Assembly: GCA_947626475.1 (NCBI GenBank)
Contig: CANQSK010000007.1
Coordinates: 1-44,010, forward strand
Length of the DNA stretch: 44,010 nt
DNA from: an uncultured Lachnospiraceae bacterium
Lineage (GTDB): Bacteria > Bacillota > Clostridia > Lachnospirales > Lachnospiraceae
Direction: 5' to 3'
The number at the start of each line of letters is the position of its first letter. Within the stretch, counting starts at the first letter, position 1. Both the position numbers and the translations under genes were made by a program. This document shows positions 6,860-42,570 of the stretch, in pieces. The notes under the pieces are model-generated. The model was given only the letters and a program-made list of their open reading frames with translations, did no database searches and was not told where the DNA came from.

Positions 6860-7954
6860 ATGACAGAATCGAAGAAGATTATTTTAACGGGGGACAGGCC
6901 TACCGGGAAGCTGCATGTGGGGCACTACGTAGGGTCTCTGAGACAGAGGGTAGAGCTTCAGAACTCCGGTCAGTTTGATGAGATCTACATTATGATCGCC
7001 GACGCCCAGGCCCTGACGGACAACGCGGACAATCCGGAGAAGGTCCGTCAGAACATTATCGAGGTGGCCCTGGATTATCTTTCCTGCGGCCTGGAGCCGG
7101 ACAAGTCCACGCTGTTCATCCAGTCCCAGGTGCCGGAGCTTACGGAGATGTCCTTTTATTATATGAATCTGGTGACCGTGTCCCGCCTGCAGCGGAATCC
7201 TACGGTGAAGAATGAGATCAAGCTGCGGAACTTTGAGACCAGCATTCCTGTCGGTTTCTTCACTTATCCCATCAGCCAGGCGGCGGATATCACCGCCTTT
7301 AAGGCGACCACGGTTCCGGTGGGGGAGGACCAGCTGCCCATGATCGAGCAGACCAGGGAGATTGTCCGCAGCTTCAACCACATCTATGATGAGGTGCTGA
7401 CGGAGCCGGAGGCCCTGATTCCTTCCAACGAGGCCTGCCGCAGGCTTCCCGGCATTGACGGCAACGCCAAGATGAGCAAGTCTCTGGGCAACTGCATCTA
7501 TCTTTCGGATTCGCCGGAAGAGGTGAAGAAGAAGATCATGAGCATGTTTACCGATCCCAATCACATCCGGGTTCAGGACCCGGGCAATGTGGAAGGGAAT
7601 CCGGTGTTTATCTATCTGGACGCTTTCTGCCGGGACGAGCATTTCGCCCGGTTCTGGCCGGAATACAGCAATCTTGAGGAACTGAAGGCCCATTACACCA
7701 GAGGCGGTCTGGGGGATGTGAAGGTGAAGAGGTTCCTCAACGAGGTCATGCAGGCGGAGCTGGAGCCTATCCGCGCCCGCAGGAAAGCCTATGAGAAGAA
7801 TATTCCGGAGGTGTACCGCATCCTTCAGGAGGGCAGCATCCGGGCTGAGAAGAAAGCGGCTGTGACTCTGGCGGAGATGAAGGCTGCCATGAAGATCAAT
7901 TATTTTGACGACATGGAGCTGATACGGAGCCAGGCCGAAAAGTACGGAGAATAA
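6860..7954 (+). CDS. trpS: tryptophanyl-tRNA synthetase
   Basis: Predicted 364-residue class I synthetase that charges tRNA-Trp in the cytoplasm. The HIGH-type signature is [12 protein letters not shown] (residues 14-25) and the KMSKS loop is AKMSKSLGN near residue 203. The length is about 30 residues above the common 330-residue form, consistent with clostridial TrpRS. AGGAGG is six bases from the ATG. There is no T-box leader: at most about 90 bases of leader precede the gene. The D,D-carboxypeptidase gene follows 13 bases after the stop and may be co-transcribed. Confidence 0.95.
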
Positions 7955-36654: not shown

Positions 36655-36665
36655 ACCAAAGGTAT

Positions 36666-36739
36666 CGAGGCGTGGCTCAGTTTGGTAGAGCGCTGCGTTC
36701 GGGACGCAGAGGCCGTGGGTTCGAATCCCGTCGCCTCGA
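36666..36739 (+). tRNA. tRNA-Pro (anticodon CGG)
   Basis: A complete cloverleaf: acceptor CGAGGCG/CGCCTCG with discriminator A, D-stem GCTC/GAGC, anticodon stem CTGCG/CGCAG with loop TTCGGGA, T-arm GTGGG-TTCGAAT-CCCGT. The anticodon CGG reads CCG. CCA is not encoded. Confidence 0.95.
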
Positions 36740-36749
36740 TTAAAACTAA

Positions 36750-36821
36750 GGCCTCGTGGTCAAGCGGCTAAGACGACGCCCTCTCACGGCGTAAACCCGG
36801 GTTCGATTCCCGGCGAGGTCA
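36750..36821 (+). tRNA. tRNA-Glu (anticodon CTC)
   Basis: Acceptor GGCCTCG/CGAGGTC (with one G-T pair) and discriminator A; D-stem GTC/GAC; anticodon stem ACGCC/GGCGT with loop CTCTCAC; T-arm CCGGG-TTCGATT-CCCGG. The anticodon CTC reads GAG. It lies ten bases after tRNA-Pro in the same transcript. Confidence 0.94.
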
Positions 36822-36828
36822 TTCAGAG

Positions 36829-36863
36829 ATGCTTTGGATGCATGAGCATCCAGAGCATTTTTT
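36829..36863 (+). terminator. terminator-like hairpin inside the tRNA cluster
   Basis: ATGCTTTGGATGC (36829-36841) pairs with GCATCCAGAGCAT (36846-36858) around ATGA, a 13-bp stem with one G-T, followed by TTTTTT (36858-36863). It has the full form of an intrinsic terminator, yet tRNA-Thr starts only ten bases later. Confidence 0.8.
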
Positions 36864-36873
36864 GAGAAGAGAT

Positions 36874-36946
<73 letters not shown>

Positions 36947-36982
36947 CTTTTTATTTCCCGAAAAAAGACTGATTTTTCACGA

Positions 36983-37036
36983 GAAGAGGCGCAGGAATGC
37001 TTGAAAATACTTGCATTTTTGCGCTTCTTCTTTTTT
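36983..37036 (+). terminator. long-stem intrinsic terminator after tRNA-Thr
   Basis: GAAGAGGCGCA (36983-36993) pairs with TGCGCTTCTTC (37020-37030). An inner AATGC/GCATT extends the stem, and six Ts follow (37031-37036). It isolates the tRNA transcript from the downstream operon. Confidence 0.8.
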
Positions 37037-37049
37037 CTCTCCAGTTGGA

Positions 37050-37088
37050 TACGGAATTGTTCCGTAATTACTACGGAATTGTTCTGTA
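37050..37088. promoter_or_regulatory. two tandem palindromes, candidate operator
   Basis: TACGGAA-TTG-TTCCGTA (37050-37066) is a perfect 7-bp inverted repeat. TACGGAA-TTG-TTCTGTA (37072-37088) is a second copy with one mismatch. Their centres are 22 bp apart, two DNA turns. A direct repeat TTGGGGGAAAA follows (37096-37117). They lie 105 bp upstream of the six-gene operon. No clear -35/-10 pair was found nearby. Confidence 0.5.
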
Positions 37089-37192
37089 AGAAAAATTGGG
37101 GGAAAATTGGGGGAAAATCTGCTCCGGCGCAATATGCCAAAATGCGACATTTCGTTTCCATAATTCATTAAACGAACGAAAGGGGATTCGCA

Positions 37193-38089
37193 ATGCAGAT
37201 CAAGTATGATAATAAGAATGTACTATATCTGTCGGCCGACAGCGGCGAAGGCGGTCTGGATCGAATGTTCCGGATGAATTTTCCCGACAGGGCCTATAAT
37301 TTTGGAATCGCGGAATGCAATACGGTTTCGGCAGCGGCGGGACTGGCGACTGCCGGAAAGATGCCTTTTGTATATACTGCTGCGCCGTTTCTGGTCTATA
37401 GGGCGTATGAATTTGTCCGCAATGATATATGTATGCAGAATTTGAATGTGAAGCTGCTTGGAACGGGAAGCGGATTGTCCGTCAGCTCCCTGGGACCGAC
37501 GCACCATTCTACAGAGGATATTGCGGCGCTGCGTGTTCTGCCGGATTTAATGCTCCTTTCACCGGCGACGCCGGCACAGGCTGCCGCGTGTATGCGGCTG
37601 GCGTATGAGCATAACGGGCCAGTGTATATTCGTCTTGGGATGAATCGGGAACCGGAACTCTTTGAAGCCGGATATCCATTCCGCCCGGAGGTATCGGACA
37701 TCATGCGCGCAGGAAAGGATATCTGCATGATATCGACCGGGAGCATCATAAGCGAAGCGATGGGAGCGGCAGAGATCCTGACAACGCATGGCTGCCAGGC
37801 GGAAGTAATCAATGTGTCAATGCTGAAACCGTTTAACGCAGCGGATGTATTGCAGAAAATAAACAGCTTTAAACGAATCGTGTCGATTGAGGAACATAAT
37901 ATTGCAGGTGGGCTTGGCGGAATATTGGCGGAGACGCTTACGGATGCCGGAATCTGTGCAAAGCTGTTCAGAATAGGGCTCAGGGATACCTTTTCTCAGG
38001 GATACGGAAAGCTGTCTGATATCCGGGCGGAAAACGGCCTGAACGCGGAGGGCATAGCCGGGCAGATCCGGGAGGCATTTTATGAATGA
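37193..38089 (+). CDS. transketolase C-terminal half (pyrimidine-binding plus TK-C domains)
   Basis: Predicted 298-residue protein. It matches the C-terminal subunit of split transketolases. The pyrimidine domain has the catalytic-Glu motif FGIAECN (E41) and LGPTHHSTED. A TK-C domain runs from about residue 165 (MISTGSIISEAMGAAEIL) to the end and includes EEHNIAGGLGGILAE. The thiamine-diphosphate phosphate-binding half (TktN) is not encoded upstream, where a terminator and tRNAs stand. A functional enzyme would need a partner from elsewhere. AAAGGGG is eight bases before the ATG. It overlaps the MaoC gene by eight bases. Confidence 0.85.
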   Translation: MQIKYDNKNVLYLSADSGEGGLDRMFRMNFPDRAYNFGIAECNTVSAAAGLATAGKMPFVYTAAPFLVYRAYEFVRNDICMQNLNVKLLGTGSGLSVSSLGPTHHSTEDIAALRVLPDLMLLSPATPAQAAACMRLAYEHNGPVYIRLGMNREPELFEAGYPFRPEVSDIMRAGKDICMISTGSIISEAMGAAEILTTHGCQAEVINVSMLKPFNAADVLQKINSFKRIVSIEEHNIAGGLGGILAETLTDAGICAKLFRIGLRDTFSQGYGKLSDIRAENGLNAEGIAGQIREAFYE

Positions 38090-38510
38090 ATATACATATG
38101 CGGAAATTCAGAAAGGGATGTCGGTAAGCTTCCAAAAGCAGATTACATCAGAGATGGAGGAAGCGTTCCGGACGATCACCGGCGATTGTAATCCGCTGCA
38201 CAGCGACGATGGATTTGCAAGGGAGATCAATCCCGGCAAATTCCGCAGACATGTTGCGTTCGGGCTTCTGACGGCTTCTCTTTTGTCTACGCTTGGGGGG
38301 GTATATTTACCGGGAAAGTATTCTCTCATCCACAGTATTGATAATTTAAGCTTCAAAAAACCGGTTTATGCGGGAGATGTTTTGACGGTGACAGGTACGG
38401 TCGACGAGAAGAAGGATGGACTGAACCTGATTCTGGTAAAAGTGAAAATCGTAAATCAGGATGGAGCGACAGTTCTGACGGCCGGTATGAAAATACTGGT
38501 GCAGAGATAA
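38082..38510 (+). CDS. MaoC-type hot-dog hydratase/dehydratase
   Basis: Predicted 142-residue single hot-dog protein. The (R)-hydratase motif is present as GDCNPLHSDDGFA with Asp35 and His40, followed by VAFGLLTASLLSTL and the C-terminal VYAGDVLTVTGTV strand. Members add or remove water across the 2,3 bond of acyl-CoA or acyl-ACP. Encoded just before an acyl carrier protein and a reductase, it probably acts on an acyl-ACP. It overlaps the transketolase gene and so is translationally coupled. Confidence 0.88.
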   Translation: MNEYTYAEIQKGMSVSFQKQITSEMEEAFRTITGDCNPLHSDDGFAREINPGKFRRHVAFGLLTASLLSTLGGVYLPGKYSLIHSIDNLSFKKPVYAGDVLTVTGTVDEKKDGLNLILVKVKIVNQDGATVLTAGMKILVQR

Positions 38511-38536
38511 TAAGATTATTACAGGAGGAGACGAAA

Positions 38537-38779
38537 ATGACCAGAGAGGAAGTTTATGAGAGGCTGAACAAAGTGTTCCGGGAAGTGTTTGATGATGACA
38601 GCATTATTGTGCAGGACAGTACCACCTCGGACGATATTGAGGACTGGGATTCTTTTGAGCATATCAATCTGGTAGTCGCGGTCGAGAATGAATTTTCCTT
38701 CAAGATTCCAATGGGGAAAGTCGTGACTATGAAGAATGTTGGCGAGATGGCGGATATCATCTTGGAATTAGGGAAATAG
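38537..38779 (+). CDS. acyl carrier protein
   Basis: Predicted 80-residue four-helix carrier. The phosphopantetheine site is Ser39 in WDSFEHINLVVAVENEF. AGGAGG precedes the ATG. It is distinct from the housekeeping fatty-acid ACP context (no fab genes nearby). Its clustering with a hydratase, a reductase and an MBOAT transferase suggests a dedicated carrier, comparable in arrangement to DltC in D-alanylation. No ligase to load it is in the window. Confidence 0.9.
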   Translation: MTREEVYERLNKVFREVFDDDSIIVQDSTTSDDIEDWDSFEHINLVVAVENEFSFKIPMGKVVTMKNVGEMADIILELGK

Positions 38780-38794
38780 ACGGGGAGAACAGTC

Positions 38795-39514
38795 GTGGGA
38801 AGATCAATGCTCGTTATCGGCGGCAGTTCTGATATTGGTATGGGAACCATCCGGCAGATTGGAATGGATTATGACAAGGTGATCGTTCATTATAATCATA
38901 TGAACGATGAGCTTCGCGCGCTTGAAAAAGAACTCGGGGCAGTTTGCGTTCAGGCGGATTTTTCGGATGAAGCGCAGACCAGAAAAATGGTGGATACCAT
39001 CCGGCAGATGGATCTAGTGCCGTCGCATATCCTTCATCTTCCCGCGCCGCCCTGCGTTAATCAGAAATACCATAAAATAAAATGGGATGTGTTCCGGCAA
39101 GAGATGAATATCTCGTTAAGGTCCTTGGTGTATATTTCGCAGGAGTTTCTTCCCCTGATGGCAAAGCAGCATTACGGAAGACTTGTTGTAATGCTGTCTT
39201 TTGTGGTAAACGGAATGCCGCCGGCATACTGTTCGAATTATGTTGTGACCAAATATGCGCTGTTGGGTCTCGTAAAAGCGCTGGCAGCGGAATATGCAGG
39301 CAAAGGGATTACTGTAAACGGAATATCTCCGTCGTGGGTCATGACGAAGTACATTTCCAATCAGCCGGAGATCTTGATCGCGCAGAACGCGGAACGAAGT
39401 CCGATAGGTCGGAATCTTGAAGTAAACGATATTGTGCCGGCGATAAAATACTTGTTTTCAGACGGCGCAATGTGTATAAACGGGCAGAATATTTCCATTA
39501 CATGCGGCAGGTGA
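38795..39514 (+). CDS. short-chain dehydrogenase/reductase
   Basis: Predicted 239-residue SDR. GTG at 38795 follows GGGGAG at normal spacing; an ATG four codons later is the alternative. The NAD(P) loop GGSSDIGMG (9-17) and the catalytic Ser135, Tyr149 and Lys153 (YVVTK) are intact. The usual NNAG is replaced by HLPAPP. It is FabG-like in size and context, so it may reduce a 3-oxoacyl-ACP to the hydroxyacyl form or the reverse. It lies 15 bases after the carrier gene. Confidence 0.88.
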   Translation: MGRSMLVIGGSSDIGMGTIRQIGMDYDKVIVHYNHMNDELRALEKELGAVCVQADFSDEAQTRKMVDTIRQMDLVPSHILHLPAPPCVNQKYHKIKWDVFRQEMNISLRSLVYISQEFLPLMAKQHYGRLVVMLSFVVNGMPPAYCSNYVVTKYALLGLVKALAAEYAGKGITVNGISPSWVMTKYISNQPEILIAQNAERSPIGRNLEVNDIVPAIKYLFSDGAMCINGQNISITCGR

Positions 39515-39520
39515 TTTTTG

Positions 39521-41077
39521 ATGACAGTAACCTCGTATCGATTTTTTGTGTTTTTGTTTATTGGGGCGGCAGTTTATTATACGGCGCCGAAAAGAATGCA
39601 GTGGGTGATTCTTCTCTGCCTCAGCGTTGTATACTATTTCCTTGCGGCAACGCCGTATACGATCCTGTTCCTGATCCTGTCCACGGTAACTGCATATACG
39701 GCTGGCATTCTTATGGAGTGCCGTTATTTCCGCGGAAATAAAGCGGCTGCGAAATGGATTACCTGTATAACGGCTGCCGCTGTACTCATTAACATTTTCG
39801 TATGGTTCCTTCTGAAAGGCAACGCATTCTGGATGCTGGGAACAAGGCTGCTTCATGAGTCGTTTCCGATTTTCCTTCAGTTAGGGGCTTTGAAAATAGT
39901 TCCTGCGTTAGGAATGGGATACTATACTGCCCAGATTATCGGATATATTCTGGACTGTTACTGGGGGATATGTACCCCGCAGAGGAACATTCTGAAACTG
40001 TTTTTATTTGTTGGCTTTTTCCCGCAGCTTACAGTGGGCCCGATCAGCAAGTATTCGGAACTGGAGTGTCTGTATCGGGATCATTCTTTCAACTATATAA
40101 ATATCGCCCATGGATCTCAGCGGATTCTGTGGGGGCTTTTCAAAAAATTGGTAATATCAGACCGGCTGGCAATCATCGTGAATGGGATATGGACGGATAC
40201 ATTATTTTATAATGGATTCTGGCCCTGGATTGTTGTATTCGTGTATCCGTTGGAGATATATACAGACTTTTCCGGATGTATGGATATCATCCTGGGGGCA
40301 GCTGAATTGTTTGATATCCGGCTTCCGGAGAATTTCAGGAATCCATTCTTTTCAAGGACATGTCAGGAATTTTGGCAGCGGTGGCATATTACTTTGGGGA
40401 CATGGGCTAGGGACCATGTATATTATCCTGTTTTAAAGAGCAGGATGATGGTTCGGCTTGGAAAATGGTCGAAGCAACATTTTAGTAAGCGGATCGCAAA
40501 ACTGATTCCATGGGCGGCAGGAATGTGGATTCTTTGGTTCGTTATGGGCTTCTGGCATGGCTCCAGCAAACATATTATCGGTGTGAGCGCGTATTTCTGG
40601 ACGATTTTAGTTCTAAGCGAAATATGCTCTCCCGGATTAAAGAAAATCACCGGCCTGCTTAAAGTGGATACGGAATCGTTCAGCTGGCACTTCTTCCAGA
40701 GTGTCCGGACATATATCATCTATTCCATTGGAGTTGTCTTTTTCACAGCGGATCGTCTGACTGAGGCATTCGAACACGTGAAAGTATTAATTCGGACATT
40801 CTCACATCCGGCATGGAACCCATGGATATTCTTTGACGGCAGCATCAGGAGTCTGGGCGTATCATATAGAGACCTAAATGTCATTTTATTATCCCTTGCT
40901 GCATTGTTGGGCGTGGATGTACTGCGGGAAAAGTATGGTTATGCTCGCACATGGCTCGACCGCCAGATATTGCCGTTCCGCTGGATGTTATACGTGGTGC
41001 TTCTGTTTGCAGTGTTGATTTTTGGGATGTATGGGCCCGGATACAATGCTAGTGAGTTCATCTACGGACAGTTTTAG
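39521..41077 (+). CDS. MBOAT-family membrane O-acyltransferase (AlgI/DltB-like)
   Basis: Predicted 518-residue protein with about ten to twelve membrane segments. The start at 39521 follows AGGTGAT; a TTG one codon earlier is less likely. Family hallmarks are present: FVYPLEIYTDFSGCMDI, FWQRWHITLGTWARDHVYYP (His289) and VMGFWHGSSK (His346, the expected catalytic histidine). Members pass acyl groups across the membrane to alginate, teichoic acid, peptidoglycan or exopolysaccharide. The carrier encoded two genes upstream is the likely donor and the DltD-like protein downstream the partner. Confidence 0.92.
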   Translation: MTVTSYRFFVFLFIGAAVYYTAPKRMQWVILLCLSVVYYFLAATPYTILFLILSTVTAYTAGILMECRYFRGNKAAAKWITCITAAAVLINIFVWFLLKGNAFWMLGTRLLHESFPIFLQLGALKIVPALGMGYYTAQIIGYILDCYWGICTPQRNILKLFLFVGFFPQLTVGPISKYSELECLYRDHSFNYINIAHGSQRILWGLFKKLVISDRLAIIVNGIWTDTLFYNGFWPWIVVFVYPLEIYTDFSGCMDIILGAAELFDIRLPENFRNPFFSRTCQEFWQRWHITLGTWARDHVYYPVLKSRMMVRLGKWSKQHFSKRIAKLIPWAAGMWILWFVMGFWHGSSKHIIGVSAYFWTILVLSEICSPGLKKITGLLKVDTESFSWHFFQSVRTYIIYSIGVVFFTADRLTEAFEHVKVLIRTFSHPAWNPWIFFDGSIRSLGVSYRDLNVILLSLAALLGVDVLREKYGYARTWLDRQILPFRWMLYVVLLFAVLIFGMYGPGYNASEFIYGQF

Positions 41078-41088
41078 GAGATAAAGAT

Positions 41089-42570
41089 ATGAAAAGAAGG
41101 CTTCTGAAGTTTGTATCTTTTATGGCAATGACAGGGATTATCTTTTATCATGTAAGTCGCGTTCTTGGGTATTATGATAACATCCATTCGGCGGCGGTAT
41201 TTTCACAATTTTATGACTTGCCGTCAGAAACAGTGGATGCTGTGTGGATAGGGGCGAGTTCTGTTCAGGAATTTATTATCCCCCCGGTGATGTTTGAAGA
41301 AACAGGGATAGCGTTATATTCATTAGCGGTTGGAAATGAACCGTTTATGGCGTCGGAATTTCTGATTCGGGAATGTGAAAGGGAGCAGGATCCGTCAGTC
41401 TATCTGGTTGATATACGGCAGCTGGCATATACGACACAGGATGATACGTATGTCAGGAGAATCACGGATAACGGTAAATGGACTGTTAATAGGTTGAATG
41501 CTATCCGATATATGCTGAATAACCTAGAATTTTATCATCCAGGGGAATATGATGCCGAAATTGATTATATTTTTCCATTCACCAAATATCATACCCGTTG
41601 GGGAGAGCTGAAGTCAGAAGATTTTGGAAAAGATGACAATTGTTTTTTTGGATATTTTATGAGGATAAATCGACAGTCTTTTAATGAAGCCGAAGTCAGG
41701 TCAAGATTTGACGCTATACCTCAGAAGCCGTCAGAAGAGAGCCTGATGTATTTAAATGACTTCCTTGATTTTTGCGATACCCTGGATAAAAAGATTATTT
41801 TTACGAGAACTCCTAATTGCCTGGATGAAAATAAATTTGCTCAGTACAATTATATACAGGAAGTTATTGAAGAAAGAGGGTATGAGGTGTGGGATTTGAA
41901 TCAGGATACCTATGAAATGGGGATTGACTATGCGAAGGATTTTGCCGATTCTATGCATACAAATGTATATGGGGCACAAAAAGTATCAAAGTATGCCGCG
42001 GTGAAATTATCTGAGGAGCTGGGGCTTCCTGATCACAGAAACGACAGCCGGTATGCGTGCTATGGGACCATGCAGGAGAAATTTCTGGAGAGACTGGGAG
42101 AAATGGAATTAACTGCAACTACTGATTTTAACCGTTATCTGGATAGGTTGATCGCATTAGATAAAAACGAGTATTCTGTTTATATTGCTGTAAAAGATAT
42201 ACAAGGGTATTCATTAACACAGAAAATGATAAAAAAGCTTGAGACATTGGGACTGAAAAATACGGATATCTTATTGGAGCACAGTTATCACAGTTTTGTT
42301 GGCATTATTGCAAATGGTGGGGTCATATATCAACATATCGGAAATGGAGAGGAACCGAGCCACTATGCGGGGGTGATAAACGGACAGACAATAAGCATGA
42401 ATAGCATGACATTTAAGGGTGGTAATAACGCCTCTATAAAATTGGGAGGAAATGAATATGCGAAGAACACACGTGGAATGAATTTTGTTGTGATAGATAA
42501 TAAAGATAGCAGAATTCTTGATTCAGTAGCTTTTGATACTCATGTTTCAGAAATAACCTGTACCCGATAA
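41089..42570 (+). CDS. DltD/SGNH-like membrane-anchored protein with C-terminal ILEI/FAM3-like domain
   Basis: Predicted 493-residue protein. An N-terminal membrane anchor (about residues 5-25) leads to an SGNH-like region with block I WIGASSVQEF (Ser57/58) and block V DSMH (Asp287, His290), as in DltD/AlgX-type partners of MBOATs. Residues 363-493 form a separate domain with GNNASIKLGGNEYAKNTRG and VAFDTH, resembling the ILEI/FAM3 domain family. That family includes glycan-binding examples. It probably accepts the acyl group from the MBOAT outside the membrane and positions it on a glycan; this is inference. This gene is notably AT-rich. Confidence 0.8.
   Translation: MKRRLLKFVSFMAMTGIIFYHVSRVLGYYDNIHSAAVFSQFYDLPSETVDAVWIGASSVQEFIIPPVMFEETGIALYSLAVGNEPFMASEFLIRECEREQDPSVYLVDIRQLAYTTQDDTYVRRITDNGKWTVNRLNAIRYMLNNLEFYHPGEYDAEIDYIFPFTKYHTRWGELKSEDFGKDDNCFFGYFMRINRQSFNEAEVRSRFDAIPQKPSEESLMYLNDFLDFCDTLDKKIIFTRTPNCLDENKFAQYNYIQEVIEERGYEVWDLNQDTYEMGIDYAKDFADSMHTNVYGAQKVSKYAAVKLSEELGLPDHRNDSRYACYGTMQEKFLERLGEMELTATTDFNRYLDRLIALDKNEYSVYIAVKDIQGYSLTQKMIKKLETLGLKNTDILLEHSYHSFVGIIANGGVIYQHIGNGEEPSHYAGVINGQTISMNSMTFKGGNNASIKLGGNEYAKNTRGMNFVVIDNKDSRILDSVAFDTHVSEITCTR

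Follow-up and report, generated by a model that had tools for sequence, protein, structure and literature searches.

The present analysis concerns six genes of an uncultured Lachnospiraceae bacterium (assembly GCA_947626475.1), located at positions 37193 to 42570 of contig CANQSK010000007.1; positions 1 to 44,010 of this contig are called here the window, i.e., the whole stretch of DNA that was analysed (44,010 nts). The genes are all open and lie contiguously on the + strand in the order TktC-MaoC-ACP-SDR-MBOAT-SGNH, with one 8-base overlap and gaps of 3 or 6 to 26 bases, in agreement with the initial annotation, which had described a tightly packed run in one orientation and proposed it as a system for surface acylation. 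TktC (37193-38089; Transket_pyr 1.3e-29, Transketolase_C 7.1e-19) encodes one half of a split transketolase, the half with the pyrimidine-binding and C-terminal domains; it is truncated at its 5′ end, retains the Glu region of the Pyr domain (GIAE) and has an AAAGGGG stretch 7 bases 5′ of its ATG. MaoC (38082-38510; MaoC 1.9e-14), overlapping TktC by 8 bases, encodes a MaoC-type (R)-hydratase/dehydratase with the GD-x-NPLH motif. After a gap of 26 bases, the third gene (38537-38779) encodes a stand-alone acyl carrier protein (ACP) of 80 amino acids with the expected Ser, its phosphopantetheine site reading DSF. The ACP scores below the curated cut-offs of both NCBIfam (2.4e-10, 40.2 bits against 70) and Pfam PP-binding (18.4 bits against 20.8), and its best sequence match among solved structures is the putative acyl carrier protein PDB 2lml (5e-18). 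The fourth gene, with a GTG start 15 bases downstream, encodes a FabG-like SDR (38795-39514; SDR 1.4e-36), and is followed after 3 or 6 bases by a DltB-like MBOAT carrying the WHG motif (39518-41077, TTG start, or ATG at 39521; MBOAT 9.3e-14).

The last gene (41089-42570) begins 11 bases after MBOAT. Sequence searches gave no SGNH family for it, Pfam returning only a C-terminal ILEI domain, and its assignment comes from the predicted structure (pLDDT 90), which adopts an SGNH fold and whose many matches include DltD and PatB; an N-terminal helix is present, and Ser57, Asp287 and His290 occupy the usual SGNH places. The ILEI-like domain (42112-42570, about residues 345-493), which may be a glycan-binding module, is absent from the congeneric operon L003 and present in many other relatives, and an alignment of 20 sequences shows a recurring G-x-N-x-V-V-x-D-like signature in SGNH tails. 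No AMP-binding domain was found in a family search of the open reading frames (ORFs) of the operon, the rest of the genome not having been searched for ligases.

The contig L003, from an uncultured Lachnospiraceae of the same genus (its coordinates identify it with contig G405:C124 of that genus), is 90.4% identical to window positions 37212-42109 and carries an intact operon of eight genes, FkbH-TktN-TktC-MaoC-ACP-SDR-MBOAT-SGNH, which starts 2.7 kb before TktC. The L003 FkbH protein (610 amino acids) reaches 48.5 bits with PF21211 (cut-off 27), contains the motif DLDNTLWGG and finds its best sequence match among solved structures in 3slr, the uncharacterized protein BF1531 (2.8e-47). For 2lml, a role in lipopolysaccharide has reportedly been proposed. 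The L003 TktN protein (275 amino acids) gives thiamine-binding-domain matches only, the best solved one being 6yak, the N component of a split-chain transketolase; both transketolase halves are present in L003 (Transketolase_N 4.6e-40, Transket_pyr 7.2e-33). Homology between the window and L003 begins at 37212, within TktC, and in the window FkbH, TktN and about the first 15 TktC codons are replaced by tRNA-flanking sequence. By this comparison, the window holds the six 3′ genes of an operon that originally comprises eight. Hence, the set proposed initially as a system is indeed contiguous but incomplete, since L003 adds FkbH and TktN in front of it.

The initial annotation was to be doubted if the six families did not co-occur elsewhere, and they do. 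All six are contiguous in L003 (6/6). Genome G163 also holds 6/6, over two contigs that both break off within MBOAT; a third contig carries FkbH and the beginning of TktN, and the ends of the three fall in the same genes. Genome G363 holds 4/6 (TktC, MaoC, ACP and MBOAT) in the order FkbH-AKR-TktN-TktC-MaoC-ACP-MBOAT, where a partial FkbH and an aldo/keto reductase (AKR) precede TktN, no SDR stands between ACP and MBOAT, and the contig ends 56 bases past MBOAT. The association of the six genes is not due to chance.

FkbH is also found more widely: at a threshold of 1e-40, a search of 397 genomes of the family gave 89 match rows, distributed over 76 genomes. Sixty-nine loci were inspected (the top 67 of the 89 match rows, L003 and L008), neighbours being called by phmmer at E 1e-3 and contig ends counting as misses. 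An ACP lies within 3 kb in 59/69 loci, MBOAT within 6 kb in 45/69, SGNH within 8 kb in 19/69 and MaoC together with SDR in 14/69, while no AMP-ligase was detected within 6 kb in any of the 69 (phmmer, two queries). Within the same distances, the 49 loci with FkbH matches of at least 500 bits account for 42 ACP, 32 MBOAT, 16 SGNH and 10 MaoC+SDR neighbours, and for three pairs of TktN and TktC within 5 kb; the corresponding counts for the 20 weaker loci are 17, 13, 3, 4 and 0. One of the three pairs (L127) lies on the FkbH strand behind an MBOAT on the opposite strand, and it resembles the L003 pair less. The characteristic motifs are largely retained: the HAD motif DxDNT[LIV]W in 63/66 FkbH proteins, WHG in 51/51 MBOATs, GD-x-N-[PL]-x-H in 17/20 MaoC proteins and the DS site in 60/62 ACPs.

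The association was also approached from the MBOAT side, using a sample blind to FkbH composed of the 38 best MBOAT matches, the own match being excluded, with neighbours classed within 6 kb. FkbH is nearby in 17 cases, an AMP-ligase in 12 and neither in 9. With 89 FkbH matches spread over about 1.2 Gb, we calculate that chance alone would produce much less than one FkbH-MBOAT pair. In a tree of 77 MBOAT rows, the window falls in a clade of 33 (SH-aLRT 99) comprising 27 rows labelled FkbH, 6 labelled as having neither neighbour and 0 labelled AMP-ligase, and the 61 rows labelled FkbH or AMP-ligase require 2 label changes. The solved relatives of the window MBOAT found by sequence are DltB structures only.

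The 9 of 38 MBOATs with neither neighbour could indicate a function in the manner of PatA/PatB, in which acyl-CoA is the donor for the acetylation of a surface glycan by MBOAT and SGNH, the carrier genes serving something else, and PatB is indeed among the fold matches of the window SGNH. However, ACP directly adjoins MBOAT in many FkbH loci, a carrier gene sits in the window operon itself, and the other class of MBOAT has an AMP-ligase in the same place, with small carrier-like ORFs near MBOAT in 9 of the 10 loci inspected out of 12 (by eye, without Pfam). Three of the nine MBOATs are at contig edges, and one of these three is that of G163, whose FkbH is on another contig. We consider an acyl-CoA-dependent, PatA/PatB-like function quite improbable.

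Rather, the family is probably a Dlt-like surface acylation system in which FkbH takes the place of DltA and acyl-modifying modules are optional additions, with FkbH-TktN-TktC-MaoC-ACP-SDR-MBOAT-SGNH as the full form of the window operon. A passage of PMC7489565 describes FkbH as the maker of glyceryl-ACP, gives 1,3-bisphosphoglycerate as the source in FkbH modules and mentions the aldehyde 2-hydroxy-3-oxopropionyl-ACP. By analogy, FkbH of the intact relatives would take 1,3-bisphosphoglycerate and load the glyceryl group onto the stand-alone ACP. As suggested by the recurring gene modules, MaoC, SDR and, in this operon, TktN and TktC would then alter or lengthen the ACP-bound acyl group. In the simplest chemistry for MaoC and SDR, glyceryl-ACP would be dehydrated to pyruvyl-ACP, which would be reduced to lactyl-ACP; with TktN and TktC, a ketose-derived C2 ketol unit might be added to an ACP-bound carbonyl before reduction. 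Finally, by analogy with DltB/DltD and PatA/PatB, the MBOAT would take the acyl group from the ACP, move it across the membrane and, together with its SGNH partner, attach it to a glycan of the cell surface through one of the hydroxyls.

The logic of carrier, MBOAT and SGNH without DltA, put forward in the initial annotation, is thus upheld by the DltB structures, by DltD among the SGNH matches and by the recurrence of the gene set. The accompanying claim that the carrier is loaded by a new route stands in that no adenylating ligase is present in the operon, but loading is most likely performed by FkbH, a known enzyme type whose substrate is known from other pathways, so the route would be new for this kind of system without being new chemistry. 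The counter-proposal of a ligase with a known substrate holds in a loose sense only: the loader would be of a known type but is not an adenylating ligase.

Comparison with described systems helps to delimit the family. The Dlt system (DltA-DltB-DltC-DltD), which D-alanylates teichoic acids, shares with it a stand-alone carrier and a DltB-like MBOAT in one operon, together with an SGNH-fold protein for which DltD is one of many structural matches, and the window MBOAT matches TIGR04091 (8.7e-33) as well as the PDB chains 6bug_C and 8jem_A. However, its TIGR04091 score of 114.1 bits is below the equivalog cut-off of 375, DltA is missing, FkbH is present in intact relatives, and MaoC, SDR and transketolase genes are additional. 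Because there is no DltA and the DltB score is under the cut-off, the window operon is not a Dlt system, though by analogy it would be Dlt-like in its working. Clusters of an AMP-ligase, a carrier and an MBOAT occur in the same bacterial family (L197-L200, L202, L203, L206, L210) and have the same MBOAT family and a small carrier-like protein, some with SGNH by phmmer (L198, L199, L203), but the adenylating ligase stands where FkbH would be and their MBOATs fall outside the clade of the window. Carriers beside AMP-ligases also look unlike the window-type ACP (by eye). A PatA/PatB-type pair would use acetyl-CoA and no carrier; PatB is among the fold matches, but the window operon includes a carrier gene.

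FkbH glyceryl-ACP modules such as those of FK520, tetronates and suomilide resemble the family in having an FkbH-like protein beside a stand-alone ACP. They differ in that the L003 FkbH is paired with MBOAT and SGNH, and no polyketide or peptide assembly line was seen in the L003 operon. In the suomilide and varlaxin clusters FkbH and MBOAT are both present, yet the relevant passage of PMC10143770 treats FkbH as a loading domain of the nonribosomal peptide synthetase (NRPS) and assigns MBOAT to another step. In Campylobacter jejuni, the FkbH-domain gene cj1302 appears where the gene content for surface (flagellar) glycans is compared, but the passage of PMC7099621 concerned names neither an MBOAT nor a carrier. 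A description of FkbH-loaded, Dlt-like surface acylation was not found among the open PMC papers searched.

Several observations weigh against this interpretation. MBOAT was not found within 6 kb in 24/69 FkbH loci, some of which are cut by contig ends, and SGNH was not found within 8 kb in 50/69. The FkbH-ACP-MaoC-SDR modules of L112, L118, L130 and L163 have no MBOAT near, hence FkbH is not exclusive to MBOAT export. FkbH-linked MBOATs do not form a single clade in the tree: 19/46 of those so labelled are outside the clade of the window, a number of these being an additional MBOAT of a locus already represented, and against all other rows this label needs 8 changes (shuffled mean 24.2, 0/500 as low); moreover, most rows were obtained through FkbH, and the FkbH label of the window was assigned from L003. 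The SGNH proteins show GxS in 16/21 and D..H in 16/21, while the window model also matches many SGNH hydrolases at low TM-scores (0.2-0.3 by query length). Both the acyl group and the acceptor are deduced by analogy. Finally, the genome of the window itself shows neither FkbH nor a split TktN, and no ACP was detected beside some split transketolases, two points that are taken up below.

Three variants of the acyl-modifying genes recur downstream of FkbH-ACP: a glyoxalase-like gene, MaoC with SDR (in 14 of the 69 FkbH loci, as above), and TktN+TktC with MaoC (L003, G163 and G363). The glyoxalase-like (VOC) gene adjoins FkbH-ACP, often beside MBOAT; it was identified by Pfam in L094 (11137-11514) and by resemblance of protein starts in L123, L109, L126, L127 and L091, and its product might epimerise a carrier-bound glyceryl group. 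Since MaoC and SDR also accompany FkbH-ACP in L112, L118, L130 and L163, which have no MBOAT near, their substrate is most likely the acyl group while it is bound to the ACP.

As regards TktN and TktC, a ketose-derived C2 unit on the carrier is possible from the gene content. According to a proposal in a passage of PMC7570522, an ACP receives a ketose C2 unit from NapB/NapD homologues, which are two-component transketolases, and a passage of PMC9570651 describes the AziC5/C6 pair of azinomycin biosynthesis as extending an aldehyde by two carbons. These systems, as given in those passages, share with L003 a two-gene transketolase that stands beside an ACP or acts on an aldehyde, but the L003 TktN has 275 amino acids against 754 for a NapD homologue (the DinS homologue; PMC7570522), and the L003 contig has no NRPS and no KASIII gene. 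In its most elaborate form, this chemistry would amount to ketosynthase-free acyl building, in which FkbH makes glyceryl-ACP, the transketolase adds C2, MaoC and a reductase finish the group, and the MBOAT exports a branched or lengthened hydroxyacyl to a surface glycan; we regard this full scheme as speculative and rather unlikely.

Alternatively, TktN and TktC of the relatives could act on a free sugar or acid, making a soluble C2-extended precursor or a component of the acceptor glycan. Related split transketolases in L079, L080 and L223 (genomes G016, G364 and G444) are found with radical-SAM proteins, a bifunctional kinase/cytidylyltransferase-like protein, a methyltransferase and sugar epimerases, identified by Pfam in L080 and by resemblance in L079 and L223. 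These clusters are similar to one another and seem to encode an unusual pathway to a nucleotide sugar; an ACP was not detected beside their TktN/TktC, so these proteins need not act on a carrier. On the other hand, TktN and TktC stand between FkbH and MaoC-ACP in L003, G163 and G363, where they are kept together with these genes, and there are precedents with a carrier (proposed for the NapB/NapD homologues) or with an aldehyde (azinomycin). A run in L007 (703-9682) combines SDR, TktN, TktC, ACP, MBOAT and SGNH with two AMP-ligases, and no FkbH was found in its 13-kb contig; it is a ligase-type counterpart of the window system and a second association of transketolase, carrier and MBOAT. It fits either view; in L007 the acid could be formed in free form before its activation. 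Action on a free sugar or acid is a serious possibility, though one we hold to be less probable than its contrary.

Upstream of the operon, the window contains an array of tRNA-Pro(cgg), tRNA-Glu(ctc) and tRNA-Thr(cgt) (36665..36947, + strand, ARAGORN), directly followed by a junction (36948..37192) that was compared with same-genus contigs by blastn. Further genomes of the genus have this array too, followed by different genes; in five of the stretches read, it comes with the 3′ end of the preceding gene, a 1507-amino-acid ORF that we take to be polC. The junction continues from the tRNAs up to 37115 in L178 too, its part from 37052 to 37167 has a similar counterpart in L177, situated 4.7 kb past the tRNAs, and at the DNA level the junction did not match the L003 region that holds FkbH and TktN. 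As blastn found the operon only in L003 among 20 same-genus stretches compared, the site appears to be variable and the operon to have been inserted there. Around the intact operon of L003, two near-identical inverted-repeat, terminator-like stretches (AAGAGCCGAAAAC...GTTTTCGGCTCTT) were noted by eye at about 90-145 and 7820-7870, one on each side, an arrangement suggestive of an insertion accompanied by duplication of the ends. An element with the motifs GGAATTGTTC and AAAAATTGGGGGAA, present in the window at 36948-37192, also lies beyond the tRNA array in two congeners (L177:5117-5252 and L178 from 9223 downwards); in L178 it seems by eye to continue into the middle of a glycosidase-like gene, hence the spot may be a rearrangement hot spot.

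The 5′ truncation could in principle be an assembly artefact, the species having the full eight-gene operon: the assembly is a draft of 207 contigs, the break falls just past the tRNA array, and contigs also end near this array in L177, L178, L179 and L194. However, FkbH has no match anywhere in the 207 contigs, although the same query matches in 76/397 relatives, and the junction sequence matches only itself in the own genome, so no repeat explains a false join. We find an artefact unlikely. TktN of L003 likewise has no match in this genome at 1e-30. Of two PF00456 matches, the strong one lies in a frame that extends beyond the domain until the contig stops, which is how a fused transketolase would look; the weak one lies in a 645-amino-acid gene, which we take to be DXS. 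TktC cannot be a normal transketolase without TktN, and for this copy to work in the way described, FkbH and the split TktN would have to be missing from the assembly only. Probably the copy in the window either lacks parts of the system or depends on a component that was not seen.

Whether the copy is also decaying, the truncation having killed the pathway, is a question on which we are evenly divided, and such a remnant would be compatible with the explanation favoured for the family. Besides the loss of FkbH, TktN and the TktC start, with no copies elsewhere in the assembly, a comparison with G163 as outgroup shows 13 TktC residues unique to the window and 2 unique to L003. Five of the 13 are in the replaced start (alignment, by eye), and the remaining ratio of 8:2 is no more skewed than that of SDR (6:1), and the ratios for MaoC, ACP and MBOAT are 0:0, 2:0 and 7:9, respectively. 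All six frames are open, the AAAGGGG stretch stands 7 bases before the TktC ATG, and the ratios of non-synonymous to synonymous substitution (dN/dS) against L003 are low, at 0.124 for TktC, 0.068 for MaoC, 0.063 for ACP, 0.128 for SDR, 0.078 for MBOAT and 0.190 for the first 345 codons of SGNH. With dN/dS of 0.06-0.19 and these residue counts, there is no clear decay. Synonymous divergence is 0.79 for MBOAT (window 39518-41077 against L003:5190-6749) and 0.17-0.31 for the other five genes, which suggests that MBOAT was swapped by recombination in the window genome or in L003.

If the interpretation of the family as an FkbH-loaded, Dlt-like system is correct, the acyl groups that gut bacteria of the window's family attach to their surface would come directly from a glycolytic intermediate, 1,3-bisphosphoglycerate. 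Dlt-type logic would then have a second loader, in a carrier-MBOAT machine that swaps DltA for FkbH, and the acyl-modifying modules (MaoC/SDR, glyoxalase-like and transketolase) would be predicted to be swappable. Because FkbH is present in 76/397 genomes of the family, with an MBOAT nearby in 45/69 loci, this would bear on many commensals and not only on the bacterium of the window.

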